Source of the DNA: Methanolobus chelungpuianus
GTDB lineage: Archaea; Halobacteriota; Methanosarcinia; Methanosarcinales; Methanosarcinaceae
Length of the DNA stretch: 64,000 bases
NCBI RefSeq assembly: GCF_024500045.1
Contig: NZ_JTEO01000004.1
Location: forward strand, 62,001-126,000
Direction of reading: 5' to 3'
Shown piece after piece: positions 52,001 to 56,170 of this stretch (positions within the stretch are counted from its first letter, which is position 1; each line of letters opens with the position of its first letter). Below the pieces are notes generated by a model. The model worked only from the letters and a program-made list of their open reading frames with translations, searched no databases and was not told where the DNA came from. A program made the translations under genes and the position numbers.

Positions 52001-52123
52001 GCTTAACTAATCACTGTTGCAGGATTTAACTTTTATCAATGCTTTTCCCCTGTCCCGCAAGTTCAATATCCTTTCAGGCGATAATCTTTATATCCAAGCA
52101 GGACATTAGAACACGAACCAAGT

Positions 52124-52195
52124 GTCCCGGTAGGGTAGCGGATATCCTTGAGGCCTGCGGAGCCTTAGACCCGAGTTCGATCCTCGGTCGGGACG
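52124..52195 (+). tRNA. tRNA-Arg (GCG)
   Basis: Acceptor GTCCCGG/TCGGGAC, anticodon stem GAGGC/GCCTT with loop CTGCGGA giving anticodon GCG, T stem CCGAG/CTCGG with loop TTCGATC, discriminator G. No CCA is encoded. An AT-rich island begins directly behind it, and I found no repeat of its 3' end by eye. Confidence 0.93.
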
Positions 52196-52364
52196 TAAAT
52201 TTTTATCCTTTTTTTGGGTTGGGTTGATGATGTCCACTCTTTCTTCAAGGAAATAATGTTCTGGGCACCTTTATTGTTTTGTGACGCTATAGCCATTAAA
52301 GATCGATGAAGTTAGTTTTCAAAACAGCCTATATATAATAATATAATTAAATTATATTAATACG

Positions 52365-52545
52365 AGACTGTCGAAAAAGTTGGCTCGTATGAAGATTAAA
52401 ACTAATTATAGCAACAATAGATAAGAATATACCAATTTCAGTTATATTCATAGTGGCCATTAATATTGATTTCTTAATTGTCTATTGCTATTTGACTCTG
52501 CTCACCGGGAGAAATTATCTTGTTTGGGGACTTTTCCGACAGTCT
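52365..52545. mobile_element. MITE-like element with 16-bp terminal inverted repeats
   Basis: AGACTGTCGAAAAAGT (52365-52380) and its inverted partner ACTTTTCCGACAGTCT (52530-52545) match at 15 of 16 positions. The 181-bp span holds no gene, and I see no clear target-site duplication. Together with the flanking AT-rich sequence this fills most of 52196-52720, which has no protein gene. Confidence 0.65.
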
Positions 52546-52558
52546 TTTTTAATCTAAC

Positions 52559-52577
52559 TTTGACAGTCAAACTTGAG
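52559..52577. repeat. Left palindromic flank of the PRTase-DprA cassette
   Basis: TTTGACAGTCAAACTTGAG. Read in inverse orientation, the sequence at 54692-54710 matches it in 17 of 19 positions. The core TTTGACAGTCAAA is nearly palindromic, so the pair can be read as direct or inverted repeats. Confidence 0.65.
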
Positions 52578-52720
52578 CTGAAAGATTTTAAAATTCGCTA
52601 TTTAGAGAATACAACTATTACTAACATCTTTTTATAGTATACAGTAGCCTAAAACACTAAATGAAATTTATAACTTTCTACTTGAAATGAGTATTTGCAA
52701 AAAATATTATTGGTGAAATA

Positions 52721-53548
52721 ATGGAAGTCTGTAGTTTTCTAAGACTAAAGGAAAGTCAGATGTTTGGTAACACATATTTCTGCGAGCTTAATAATTTTGT
52801 TACATGTTGGCCAAACAATAATCCCTTTTGTCGTTTTTGTAAACACAACCCAAATAAAAAATCTCATAGTGCTGTTTATACCTTATCAGATAATGTTATA
52901 GCGGATTCAAAAAATATATGTGGGATGTTTTGCAGTCCTGAAGAGCATGAATTTATTTTAAAGAAAATATTCATAAACCCTCAAGAACATAAGTTAGCTA
53001 CGGAGCTTATTAAAAAATTTTCTCGAGAGGAGTACTTTGCCTTAGCGCTAAAATCGAATGTATGTTTTGGATTTTATTATCCAAAAAATAGAGGAGTAAA
53101 GTCCGAATTTAGCTCGTTGATTTTAGCTGTTAAGAATCAGAAAAAGGCTGCAGTTGAATTTTTCGTAAAGTTACTTATTGTTATTCTTTCAGATAAGGAA
53201 GAGTTCGTTATATGCGTTATACCCAGCCATGAAGCAGGACTAAAACCCTCGGGCATAAGAGACATCGCGAAAAGATTATGCAAAGAGCCTATAATTGACG
53301 GAACTGATATATTGGTCAGAAGTAAAACGATACCCTCAAAACATCAAAGTGGAGTTCGGGACTTGAGATTAGAGAGAGAATCCTTGGATGTTATAAATAA
53401 AAATAAAATAAAAGGTAGAAACATACTGCTTTTAGATGATGTAGCAACAACTGGTACTTCCTTAGTGGCCGGAAGAAGTAAACTATTGGAGGCAGGTGCT
53501 AAATCTGTTGCATCAATTGCATTAGGGCATACTCATATTACCTCTTGA
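52721..53548 (+). CDS. Phosphoribosyltransferase-fold protein, ShosT-like
   Basis: The 275-residue protein ends with a type I phosphoribosyltransferase core: PRPP loop ILLLDDVATTGTSLVAG (about 235-251) with two acidic residues and the TTGTS turn. The N-terminus carries a probable zinc site (Cys 21, 29, 37, 40 in ELNNFVTCWPNNNPFCRFCK). It lies 17 bp before a DprA-like gene. The same pair defines ShosTA, where the PRTase is the toxin and the DprA homologue the antitoxin. Base composition is much more AT-rich than the rest of the window, pointing to transfer. ComF-like competence function is the alternative reading, but this is a methanogen without a competence locus nearby. Confidence 0.78.
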   Translation: MEVCSFLRLKESQMFGNTYFCELNNFVTCWPNNNPFCRFCKHNPNKKSHSAVYTLSDNVIADSKNICGMFCSPEEHEFILKKIFINPQEHKLATELIKKFSREEYFALALKSNVCFGFYYPKNRGVKSEFSSLILAVKNQKKAAVEFFVKLLIVILSDKEEFVICVIPSHEAGLKPSGIRDIAKRLCKEPIIDGTDILVRSKTIPSKHQSGVRDLRLERESLDVINKNKIKGRNILLLDDVATTGTSLVAGRSKLLEAGAKSVASIALGHTHITS

Positions 53549-53565
53549 TAATATAGGGAGACAAC

Positions 53566-54636
53566 ATGAAACCAATACCGTTGTTAGCATTACAAAAAAT
53601 GCCTGGTATAGGTACAAAAACAATTGAGAAAGTACTTTCTTTACCAAATATCGATGAATCCGCCACCCCAGAAGAATTGATAGATATTCTTAAAACAGCA
53701 AAGGCAAGTTTTGGAAAGATAATAGTACCCGATATTCAAGCCGCTCAAATTGCCTGGAAGAAAGCTCACTATATATGGGAGATTTCAAAAGAACATAATA
53801 TTCATATTATTACAAGAGGTGAAGATGAGTATCCAGAGCTATTGGCACAAATACCTGATTCACCTGCGTTATTACATGTAAAAGGTAATATCAATGCCTT
53901 GAAAAAGGACTGCATCGCAATTATAGGGACTCGAAAGCCAATAGAGTTCAGCAAAGCTCAAGCACGGAAAATAAGTTCATCATACGCATCTGAAGGGTAT
54001 GCGGTTATTAGTGGCTTGGCTGCAGGTATAGATACAGCAGCTCATAGAGGCGCTTTGGATGTTGATGGAACAACAATTGCAGTTTTAGCTCACGGATTAG
54101 ACACAATCTATCCCGCCAGTAATAGAGAACTTGCGGAGTCAATTCTTAACAAAAACGGTGCGCTTATTTCAGAGTATCCATATGGTACAAAGATTAATCA
54201 AAGTTACTTCGTTGCCCGCGATAGAATTCAGAGTGGATTGTCATTAGGAGTTTTCGTGATTGAAACTAATATAAAAGGTGGCACAATGCATACGGTAAAT
54301 TTCTCTGAAAAACAGAAAAGAGCTCTTTATGTATTGAAGCATCCTGAAATATTAAAAAATAATCCAAATATAGCTGGTAATGCACAGTTAATCGAGGGAA
54401 AAAGAGGAATTGCATTTGATGCTGATAATGATATTAGCTCAATCAAAATTGAACTAGAAAGAGTAAAACATAAATTCAACTCAAAGCTTTTTCTTCAAAG
54501 TGTACAGGAATGGGAAACATTTAACAAAATATCTGAAGCCAGCGAGAGCGAAAAAAACTCTTTGCTCGAGAAGCAAATGAATGATGAAGTAAAAAAGAAG
54601 AAAACTATCAAAACTACTTTTGCAGATTTCCTTTAA
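53566..54636 (+). CDS. DprA/Smf-like Rossmann protein, ShosA-like
   Basis: The 356-residue protein has an N-terminal helix-hairpin-helix (ALQKMPGIGTKTIEKVLSL, about 8-26). A DprA core follows: IAIIGTRKPIEFSKAQA (about 117-133), AVISGLAAGIDTAAHRGAL (about 144-162), LAHGLDTIYPASN and the late YFVARDRIQSGLSLG. Typical DprA binds single-stranded DNA and RecA. Here the coupling to a PRTase fits a ShosTA-type toxin-antitoxin/antiphage pair. The C-terminus is charged and coiled-coil-like (SEKNSLLEKQMNDEVKKKKT). Both genes are AT-rich. Confidence 0.85.
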   Translation: MKPIPLLALQKMPGIGTKTIEKVLSLPNIDESATPEELIDILKTAKASFGKIIVPDIQAAQIAWKKAHYIWEISKEHNIHIITRGEDEYPELLAQIPDSPALLHVKGNINALKKDCIAIIGTRKPIEFSKAQARKISSSYASEGYAVISGLAAGIDTAAHRGALDVDGTTIAVLAHGLDTIYPASNRELAESILNKNGALISEYPYGTKINQSYFVARDRIQSGLSLGVFVIETNIKGGTMHTVNFSEKQKRALYVLKHPEILKNNPNIAGNAQLIEGKRGIAFDADNDISSIKIELERVKHKFNSKLFLQSVQEWETFNKISEASESEKNSLLEKQMNDEVKKKKTIKTTFADFL

Positions 54637-54691
54637 ATTATTTCTAAAGGTCAGCTGTATGAGAGATAAAGAAATATTCAAGTTAGTACCC

Positions 54692-54710
54692 CAAGTTTGA
54701 CAGTCAAACT
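54692..54710. repeat. Right palindromic flank of the PRTase-DprA cassette
   Basis: CCAAGTTTGACAGTCAAACT contains AGTTTGAC-A-GTCAAACT, a 17-bp palindrome with one central base. It lies 56 bp after the DprA-like stop and mirrors the repeat at 52559-52577. The following stretch to 54922 (about 210 bp) has no gene I can support. Confidence 0.65.
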
Positions 54711-54922
54711 CGGGTGGCATATCTGCCCTTCTGCAACCAGTTATTAGGACAAAGAGAATCCCACTGATGAACTTACGGTCATCAGCTCTCTTCTCCCGAC
54801 AATAAGTTGTGGTGACAAATATACCTTAATAAAATTCTATTGTTCCTCATAGAGGTCTCTGAATTTAATTCATATTCCCATATACCAGCGGAGGAAATGG
54901 TATTTACAGTTTTTACACGGGC

Positions 54923-55357
54923 TCATAATCTAATATCATTGTTATCCTCATAAAGATGGAAACCTTCGTCACCTTCAAAGTCAGATGATGTTGATTTTAG
55001 ATATAGATTACCATCTGATAAAAGTCCGAATTTTGAAAACAATTCAAATTTATCTTCTATCCTTTGTTTGAATGCATTCTCTAACTTTGTATTTCGAGGG
55101 TGCAAAATGGAATGACATTTAATACAAATGCATGACAAATTACTCAAATCATCACTTCCACCTTCACTGCGATGAATCATGTGATGAGTGTGAAGTTCTA
55201 TTCCTCCTTCCAAACAGTATCGGCAATGACCATTCTCTCTTCTAAAAGCTTCTTTTCTTAAAAATTGCCAGTTACTAGGATAACCTATTGGGATTTTAGC
55301 TGATTTTCTTTTAGTTGCATTTTGAGTAGCTGCGTAAGTATTTCCATAAACAGACAT
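54923..55357 (-). CDS. HNH endonuclease
   Basis: The 144-residue protein has a C-terminal HNH domain: GHCRYCLEGGIELHTHHMIH (about 43-62) with the zinc Cys pair and the His-His, then LSNLSCICIKCHSILHPRN (about 72-90) with the second CxxC and the final His. The N-terminal part is basic. I take ATG 55357 (GGTGAG upstream); GTG 55369 is possible. It lies on the right side of the AT-rich island, on the opposite strand to the PRTase-DprA pair. It may be a homing or defence nuclease. Confidence 0.85.
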   Translation of the reverse strand: MSVYGNTYAATQNATKRKSAKIPIGYPSNWQFLRKEAFRRENGHCRYCLEGGIELHTHHMIHRSEGGSDDLSNLSCICIKCHSILHPRNTKLENAFKQRIEDKFELFSKFGLLSDGNLYLKSTSSDFEGDEGFHLYEDNNDIRL

Positions 55358-55573
55358 TCTTCTCACCACTTTAGAAAGTAATGTGAAATATTATCTATTT
55401 AATGCAAGCATAGTGAAAGTAATCCATAAGACCTTCTGTAATATGCCAGTAATAGAAAAATATGTAGAAACCCTCAGGGAGTAGTACTTTTTAAATTATA
55501 TGTAAATAATAGTAATTTAGTTTTCCACATAGCCTGTATGCATGTATCTTGTAATCCCCTATACTCCTTTACC

Positions 55574-56170
55574 TCAAAACGACCCCGTTTCCACTCCCCC
55601 ACCACGCCTGTAATAAGCTACTATCACGCCCCTCGGCGACTTTTTCAAATCTTGCAGAGTAAAGGCAGCGGGAATAGTGCCTTCGGCAAACAGGCGCTTG
55701 CCTGTTCCGAGCGTGATGGGAAATATCATGAGCCATAACTCGTCAACGAGGTCGTGCTTCAACAGCGTCTGAACGAGGTTGCCGCTGCCAAGAACCTGCA
55801 GCTGCGGGCCTTCCTGCGCCTTAAGCTTTTTTATTTCCTCTACGACATTGCCTTTCAACAGGACCGAATTACTCCACTCCGTCTGCAGAGGGGAATGAGA
55901 GGCTACATACTTCCTTGCTTTATTGAGTGCTTCTCCCTCTTCATTGTGGTCCGGCCAGTAGCCGGCAAATATCTCATATGTTCTCCTGCCAAGCAGGAGG
56001 TCAAACGGCCTGCTCATCTGCTCGGTCATTACCCCGCCAAGAAAGTCGTCAAAGTAAGGAAAGGTCCAGCCGCCATACCTGAAACCGCCTGAAGTATCTT
56101 CCTCCGGCCCGCCCGGAGCCTGCACAACGCCGTCAAGCGTTATAAAAGACGAGACAATTATCTCTCCCAT
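55574..56170 (-). CDS. Dihydrofolate reductase-family (RibD C-terminal) protein
   Basis: The 198-residue protein begins EIIVSSFITLDGVVQAPGG (3-21), contains FDLLLGRRTYEIFAGYWP (about 56-73) and LQVLGSGNLVQTLLKHDLVD (about 123-142), and ends PRGVIVAYYRRG. These are marks of the YyaP/RibD-C type reductase family. Its substrate is unknown. Methanogens use methanopterin, so it is probably not a true dihydrofolate reductase. A TATA-like CTATATAT (56226-56233) is the probable promoter of the next gene. Confidence 0.88.
   Translation of the reverse strand: MGEIIVSSFITLDGVVQAPGGPEEDTSGGFRYGGWTFPYFDDFLGGVMTEQMSRPFDLLLGRRTYEIFAGYWPDHNEEGEALNKARKYVASHSPLQTEWSNSVLLKGNVVEEIKKLKAQEGPQLQVLGSGNLVQTLLKHDLVDELWLMIFPITLGTGKRLFAEGTIPAAFTLQDLKKSPRGVIVAYYRRGGGVETGSF

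Follow-up and report, generated by a model that had tools for sequence, protein, structure and literature searches.

We asked whether two adjacent genes of Methanolobus chelungpuianus, encoding a phosphoribosyltransferase (PRTase) and a DprA-like protein, form an archaeal counterpart of the bacterial ShosTA toxin-antitoxin and antiphage system, and whether they travel as a cassette delimited by palindromic repeats. Both ideas had been put forward in a first-pass annotation of the window, the whole stretch of 64,000 nucleotides analysed here, which is part of a 2.6-Mb archaeal genome.

The PRTase-DprA pair and its family assignment

The open reading frames confirmed that a PRTase gene with an N-terminal Cys cluster is followed 17 bp later by a DprA-like gene. 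Both lie on the same strand in an operon-like layout, and plausible ribosome-binding sites precede the PRTase (GGTGA) and the DprA (GGGAGA). The DprA is the only full-length DprA in the genome. The pair had also been described as AT-rich, and its region indeed has a GC content of 33-36% against a background of ~51%. The features of the locus are as follows.

52123..52196, + strand: tRNA-Arg (gcg), found with ARAGORN; left edge of a variable hotspot, homology to congeners ending at ~52195-52227
52217..55546, no strand: AT-rich accessory segment holding the pair; homology to relatives stops at ~52216 and returns at 55547-55609
52364..52546, no strand: MITE-like element of 183 bp with terminal inverted repeats GAGACTGTCGAAAAAGT / ACTTTTCCGACAGTCT (inverted repeat I6)
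52559..52577, no strand: left near-palindrome TTTGACAGTCAAACTTGAG, ~144 bp ahead of the PRTase start
52721..53548, + strand: ShosT-like PRTase, 275 aa (open reading frame, PADLOC, Pfam, structure model)
53566..54636, + strand: ShosA-like DprA, 356 aa, with a SLOG/Rossmann DprA core and a low-confidence tail ending KTTFADFL
54610..54633, + strand: DprA C-terminal tail motif KTTFADFL, possibly PIP- or clamp-motif-like
54692..54710, no strand: right near-palindrome, within the imperfect palindrome CCCAAGTTTGACAGTCAAACTCGGG
54923..55369, - strand: small HNH endonuclease gene (Pfam HNH, 1.2e-9), in the accessory segment and outside the repeats

When both proteins were searched against the ShosT and ShosA profiles, as had been suggested, these proved to be their best PADLOC models: ShosT PDLC03962 for the PRTase (E 6.4e-18) and ShosA PDLC03961 for the DprA (E 7e-76, 253 bits), with PsyrT (1.4e-7) and PsyrA (6.8e-36) as weaker matches. 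In Pfam, DNA_processg_A was found in the DprA (8e-63) and Pribosyltran fell slightly below its cut-off for the PRTase. PRTase matches were the only ones on the 275-aa protein in PADLOC and Pfam, and a RecQ-type helicase domain was absent. The type I PRTase domain carries the PRPP motif LLLDDVATTGTS at residues 236-247, an intact DDxxTTGTS-type PRPP-binding motif; its active-site residues D239, D240 and T243 are invariant and G245 near-invariant in an alignment of 17 PRTase sequences.

The E. coli P2-type prophage pair and the SopEPhi pair both had the same two best PADLOC models with similar scores (2.7e-18 and 1.4e-69 for the bacterial yardstick pair), so the window pair is of the 'short' PRTase-DprA type. 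In the P2-like phage hotspot, too (E. coli WAT prophage L173; SopEPhi orf14/orf15), a short PRTase directly precedes DprA, and both settings are mobile or hotspot ones. The window pair differs from it in the extra N-terminal Cys domain of the PRTase, in a DprA that belongs to a separate archaeal group, and in its location at a chromosomal tRNA hotspot rather than in a prophage. No close copy of the SopEPhi pair was found in E. coli by megablast, whereas a sensitive search gave 47 E. coli genomes.

Two further known systems were compared. ShosTA of E. coli APEC O1 (PDB 8zva, 8zvb-d) likewise combines a PRTase toxin with a DprA-like antitoxin, but its solved 432-aa ShosT has a different N-terminal part and appears to represent another subfamily than the window PRTase, since the long PADLOC ShosT model PDLC03012 matched the latter at only 0.008, over 40 residues, and the solved protein aligns with it over the PRTase domain only. 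The mechanism of this E. coli system is reportedly described by Pu et al. in Nat Commun (2025). PsyrTA/RqlHI shares a DprA antitoxin adjoining a protein with a C-terminal PRTase, there fused to a RecQ-type helicase; the window protein lacks the helicase domain, and the PsyrTA gene order is reversed (DprA first in L170).

The DprA model (pLDDT 87) superposed on two solved structures, DprA 3maj (Z 34.5) and ShosA 8zva of E. coli (Z 28.1, rmsd 3.9, 277 residues, 26% identity). For the PRTase, the model reaches good confidence only past ~residue 100, and its top PDB fold match, ComF 7p0h (Z 12.3), tied with ShosT 8zvd/8zvc (Z 11.8/11.4).

The tRNA-Arg hotspot and the palindromic repeats

The OBG GTPase gene is retained in 26 congeners, and homology continues from it through the tRNA-Arg and ends directly after. 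In the closest relatives homology returns at 55547-55609, at a RibD-like gene, or further right. As judged from the breakpoints at ~52216 and ~55547, the accessory segment (~3.3 kb, ~52.2-55.5 kb) is wider than the 2.15 kb between the palindromes. Relatives hold unrelated, mostly AT-rich DNA between the same breakpoints, including restriction-type and candidate defence genes as well as a methyltransferase or membrane proteins. What the site holds thus varies, and the PRTase-DprA pair is one of its contents.

Other DNA at the hotspot included, in one relative (L055:6960-9484, G023), consecutive radical-SAM, TcmP-like and DUF2971-like genes, which may make up a defence set not yet characterised. 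The DUF2971-like gene matches the candidate defence model PADLOC PDC-S31 (2e-20); the names TcmP and DUF2971 are our reading of the sequence, not tool matches. A second relative (L058:1088-6494, G015) carries consecutive genes for a GHKL ATPase, a receiver-like protein, a PtuB-like HNH protein and a methylase of the Eco57I type. The MITE-like element has one copy inside the hotspot and a diverged second copy, 71% identical, at G000:C10:58143-58329.

The repeats exceed what is expected by chance. TTTGACAGTCAAAC has two exact copies in the genome, both flanking the pair, and its core TTTGACAGTCAAA is itself palindromic, so a direct reading (15 nt, perfect) and an inverted one (17/19) are indistinguishable. 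The best direct match between the flanks scores 15, which none of 600 shuffles equalled (maximum 12); the inverted match was equalled in 6 of 600. That the sole two exact copies enclose the pair would suit a mobile cassette moved as a unit by a trans-acting recombinase, but this is very unlikely given that no target-site duplication was found at the repeats, no recombinase gene lies between them and island DNA runs past both. Moreover, none of the 16 homologous pairs at which the repeats were looked for carries them, and other genomes contain only single, scattered near-copies. The repeats are real, at 52559-52577 and 54692-54710, whereas the claim that they bound a moving unit is unsupported because they are absent around homologous pairs.

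Rejected as transposon or cassette ends for lack of a duplication and of counterparts at homologous pairs, the palindromes are most simply explained as sequences with a local role in regulation or structure, an upstream site and a 3' hairpin, although a regulatory role is a guess. The left copy lies ~50-60 bp upstream of the TATA-like TTTTATAGTA (52630-52639) and folds no better than shuffles. The right copy is a stable hairpin 56 bp past the DprA stop that folds better than shuffles (z -3.2), and neither copy is followed by a T run. A pair in Altiarchaeales (L091) is flanked by an 18-nt perfect direct repeat, TCAAATTTAAAGAATAAA, unrelated to the window repeats. Taken together, the reading frames, Cys cluster, low GC, repeats and ShosTA-like assignment of the first-pass annotation stood, and its bounded cassette found no support.

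Distribution of the pair and PRTases without DprA

Single-sequence searches found no close PRTase relatives, and an alignment query detected homologues, which are patchy in the order (16 of 186 genomes). PRTase-DprA adjacency recurs in at least 12 divergent archaeal loci: homologous PRTases adjoin DprA, at 35-57% identity, in Methanosarcinaceae, ANME-2c, Methanothrix-like archaea, Altiarchaeota, Methanomassiliicoccales, Nanohaloarchaeota and a few bacteria. In a maximum-likelihood tree, which has only two housekeeping rows and several long bacterial branches, the archaeal DprAs (Methanosarcinales, Altiarchaeota, Methanomassiliicoccales, Nanohaloarchaeota) form one group (90/91, slightly under the strict threshold). 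The window DprA sits inside starred subsets of this group, and a 100/99 branch separates it from housekeeping DprA. The match of the pair to ShosTA holds by profile for both proteins and, for the DprA, also by tree. The further suggestion of a new archaeal subtype with defined ends was borne out as to the archaeal (Methanolobus-group) origin and the Cys N-terminus; the ends are unsupported, and archaeal ShosTA was known, being already listed for Asgard archaea (PMC11291487).

The Cys-rich N-terminus of the PRTase (residues 1-75; C4, C21, C29, C37, C40, C67, C71) is real and common to three Methanosarcinaceae relatives (L085, L080, G507), of which L080 and G507 may be one genome from two collections. 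The window PRTase and L085 have in common the pattern C-x-[FY]-L-[RK]-L ... C ... [VY]-x-C ... C-x2-C-[RK]-H, and L080 and G507 show it minus one Cys. The remaining archaeal and bacterial PRTases lack the Cys domain or have different N-terminal parts, such as a possible helix-turn-helix (weak) in L167. The domain matched nothing in Pfam, PADLOC or NCBIfam, and AlphaFold gave no confident model for its 75 residues.

Variant architectures were also observed. A Methanosarcinaceae locus (L168:5943-9316, G368) encodes an 811-aa fusion of AAA_11 (SF1 helicase-type) with a ShosT-like PRTase, a parallel to the RecQ-PRTase fusion of PsyrTA, followed by a DprA whose tail ends NVTLDYFA. Bacterial plasmids (L232, L235 and neighbours L230, L233, L234) hold a variant with a third, HAD-hydrolase gene; the order is PRTase-DprA-HAD in Segatella and Sinorhizobium, and DprA adjoins the HAD gene in Priestia, Psychrobacter and Bradyrhizobium.

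These data bear on whether the two genes are simply ComF and DprA proteins of competence or housekeeping, a reading that is already largely refuted and that we regard as highly improbable. Its appeal lies in the common folds, with ComF the top PDB match, in a TIGR comF match to the PRTase at 4.5e-8 (33.2 bits, not reaching the cut-off of 233.55), and in TIGR00732 dprA, which the window DprA passes (195.6; cut-off 191.15). However, the ShosA model reaches 253 bits on the same protein, and ordinary ComF and DprA were the best matches neither for the DprA nor, by sequence, for the PRTase, the PRTase fold being tied. ComF and housekeeping DprA are as a rule not in one operon, belong to a different clade and have different best models. 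Nearly all loci of ComF-like, less similar PRTases (E 1e-7 to 1e-26) are without DprA on the DNA examined, whereas at most of the closest loci (E < 1e-30) a full-length DprA follows the PRTase directly, and at several of the others a remnant is left. An AT-rich pair of patchy occurrence in a hotspot also argues against housekeeping genes.

The loci with a remnant raise a different question, namely whether the PRTase is really a lethal toxin. Six ANME-2 genomes (G041, G053, G430-G433) have the PRTase and no detected DprA, although an undetected one is possible because their completeness is 73-94%. In the five loci examined (L084, L086, L087, L088, L089; ANME-2/Methanosarcinales MAGs), DprA is a remnant of 20-50 codons and the PRTase, directly upstream of a tRNA-like sequence (read by eye), is intact, with no stops and a pairwise dN/dS of 0.12-0.49, indicating purifying selection. 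This is incompatible with a toxin that is strictly lethal, so the PRTase is either non-lethal alone in ANME-2 hosts or has changed its role. It could then be a metabolic or signalling enzyme with DprA as a dispensable regulator, and the pair would not be a lethal toxin-antitoxin in archaea; we consider this unlikely, as PRTase-DprA adjacency is kept across archaeal phyla elsewhere, the pairwise dN/dS may partly predate the loss of DprA, and the genomes are incomplete. Also to be set against a toxin-antitoxin reading are the ComF fold similarity, which ties with ShosT, and the first 75 PRTase residues, which have neither a confident model nor a family match.

Proposed function and the DprA tail

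On balance, the pair is probably an archaeal PRTase-DprA (ShosTA-like) member of the toxin-antitoxin or abortive-infection type, acquired into the tRNA-Arg-adjacent hotspot of Methanolobus and acting as set out below. The sequence analyses established its family membership, intact PRPP motif, operon-like layout, archaeal clade and hotspot location. Rousset et al. (2022, PMC9122126) found that a related pair from the P2 hotspot gives protection from T7 and lambda, and proposed that its DprA senses phage DNA and activates the PRTase, possibly as a form of cell suicide. According to a review, nucleotide pools are altered by ShosT, whereas ShosA is a DNA-binding protein that promotes recombination; as the ShosTA mechanism it describes DNA damage and repair and a PRTase together with a pyrophosphatase, with Gp0.7 as the trigger (PMC12593503). 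The anatomy of the window pair fits these accounts. By analogy with bacterial relatives, the DprA-like protein may bind single-stranded DNA or replication intermediates and restrain the PRTase or counter its damage. Viral replication would disturb the balance between the two, and the PRTase would then use PRPP to disturb nucleotide pools, halting the infected cell.

The C-terminal tails of the DprAs offer a hint of where such control might take place: they end in a conserved QxTL-like motif reminiscent of the PCNA-binding box in FEN1 of the window genome. Qxx[LM], a motif chosen post hoc, occurs in 9 of 14 archaeal DprA tails against 1.3 expected in shuffled tails, and the archaeal tails QSTLD, QMTLD, NVTLDYFA, QFYLDSF and KTTFADFL resemble the FEN1 tail QRTLDSWF of the same genome. 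The two aromatic residues that complete a PIP box are missing from most archaeal DprA tails. Bacterial DprA tails include QPTLL, QTSMAF and QSTLDLI. The enrichment and the likeness to FEN1 tentatively suggest that archaeal ShosA-type proteins might be tethered to PCNA through a PIP-like C-terminal tail, with the PRTase controlled at the replication fork, and that bacterial relatives might have a beta-clamp-like tail instead.

In archaea, methanogens and ANME-2 among them, PRTase-DprA pairs of the defence type thus make up a group of their own that has spread horizontally; the pair described here sits at a tRNA hotspot. Two new leads are of most use, the tail motif and the PRTases without DprA: the former, through clamp tethering, makes the role of DprA in PRTase-DprA systems testable, and the latter, kept by selection, make it testable whether the PRTase is truly a lethal toxin.
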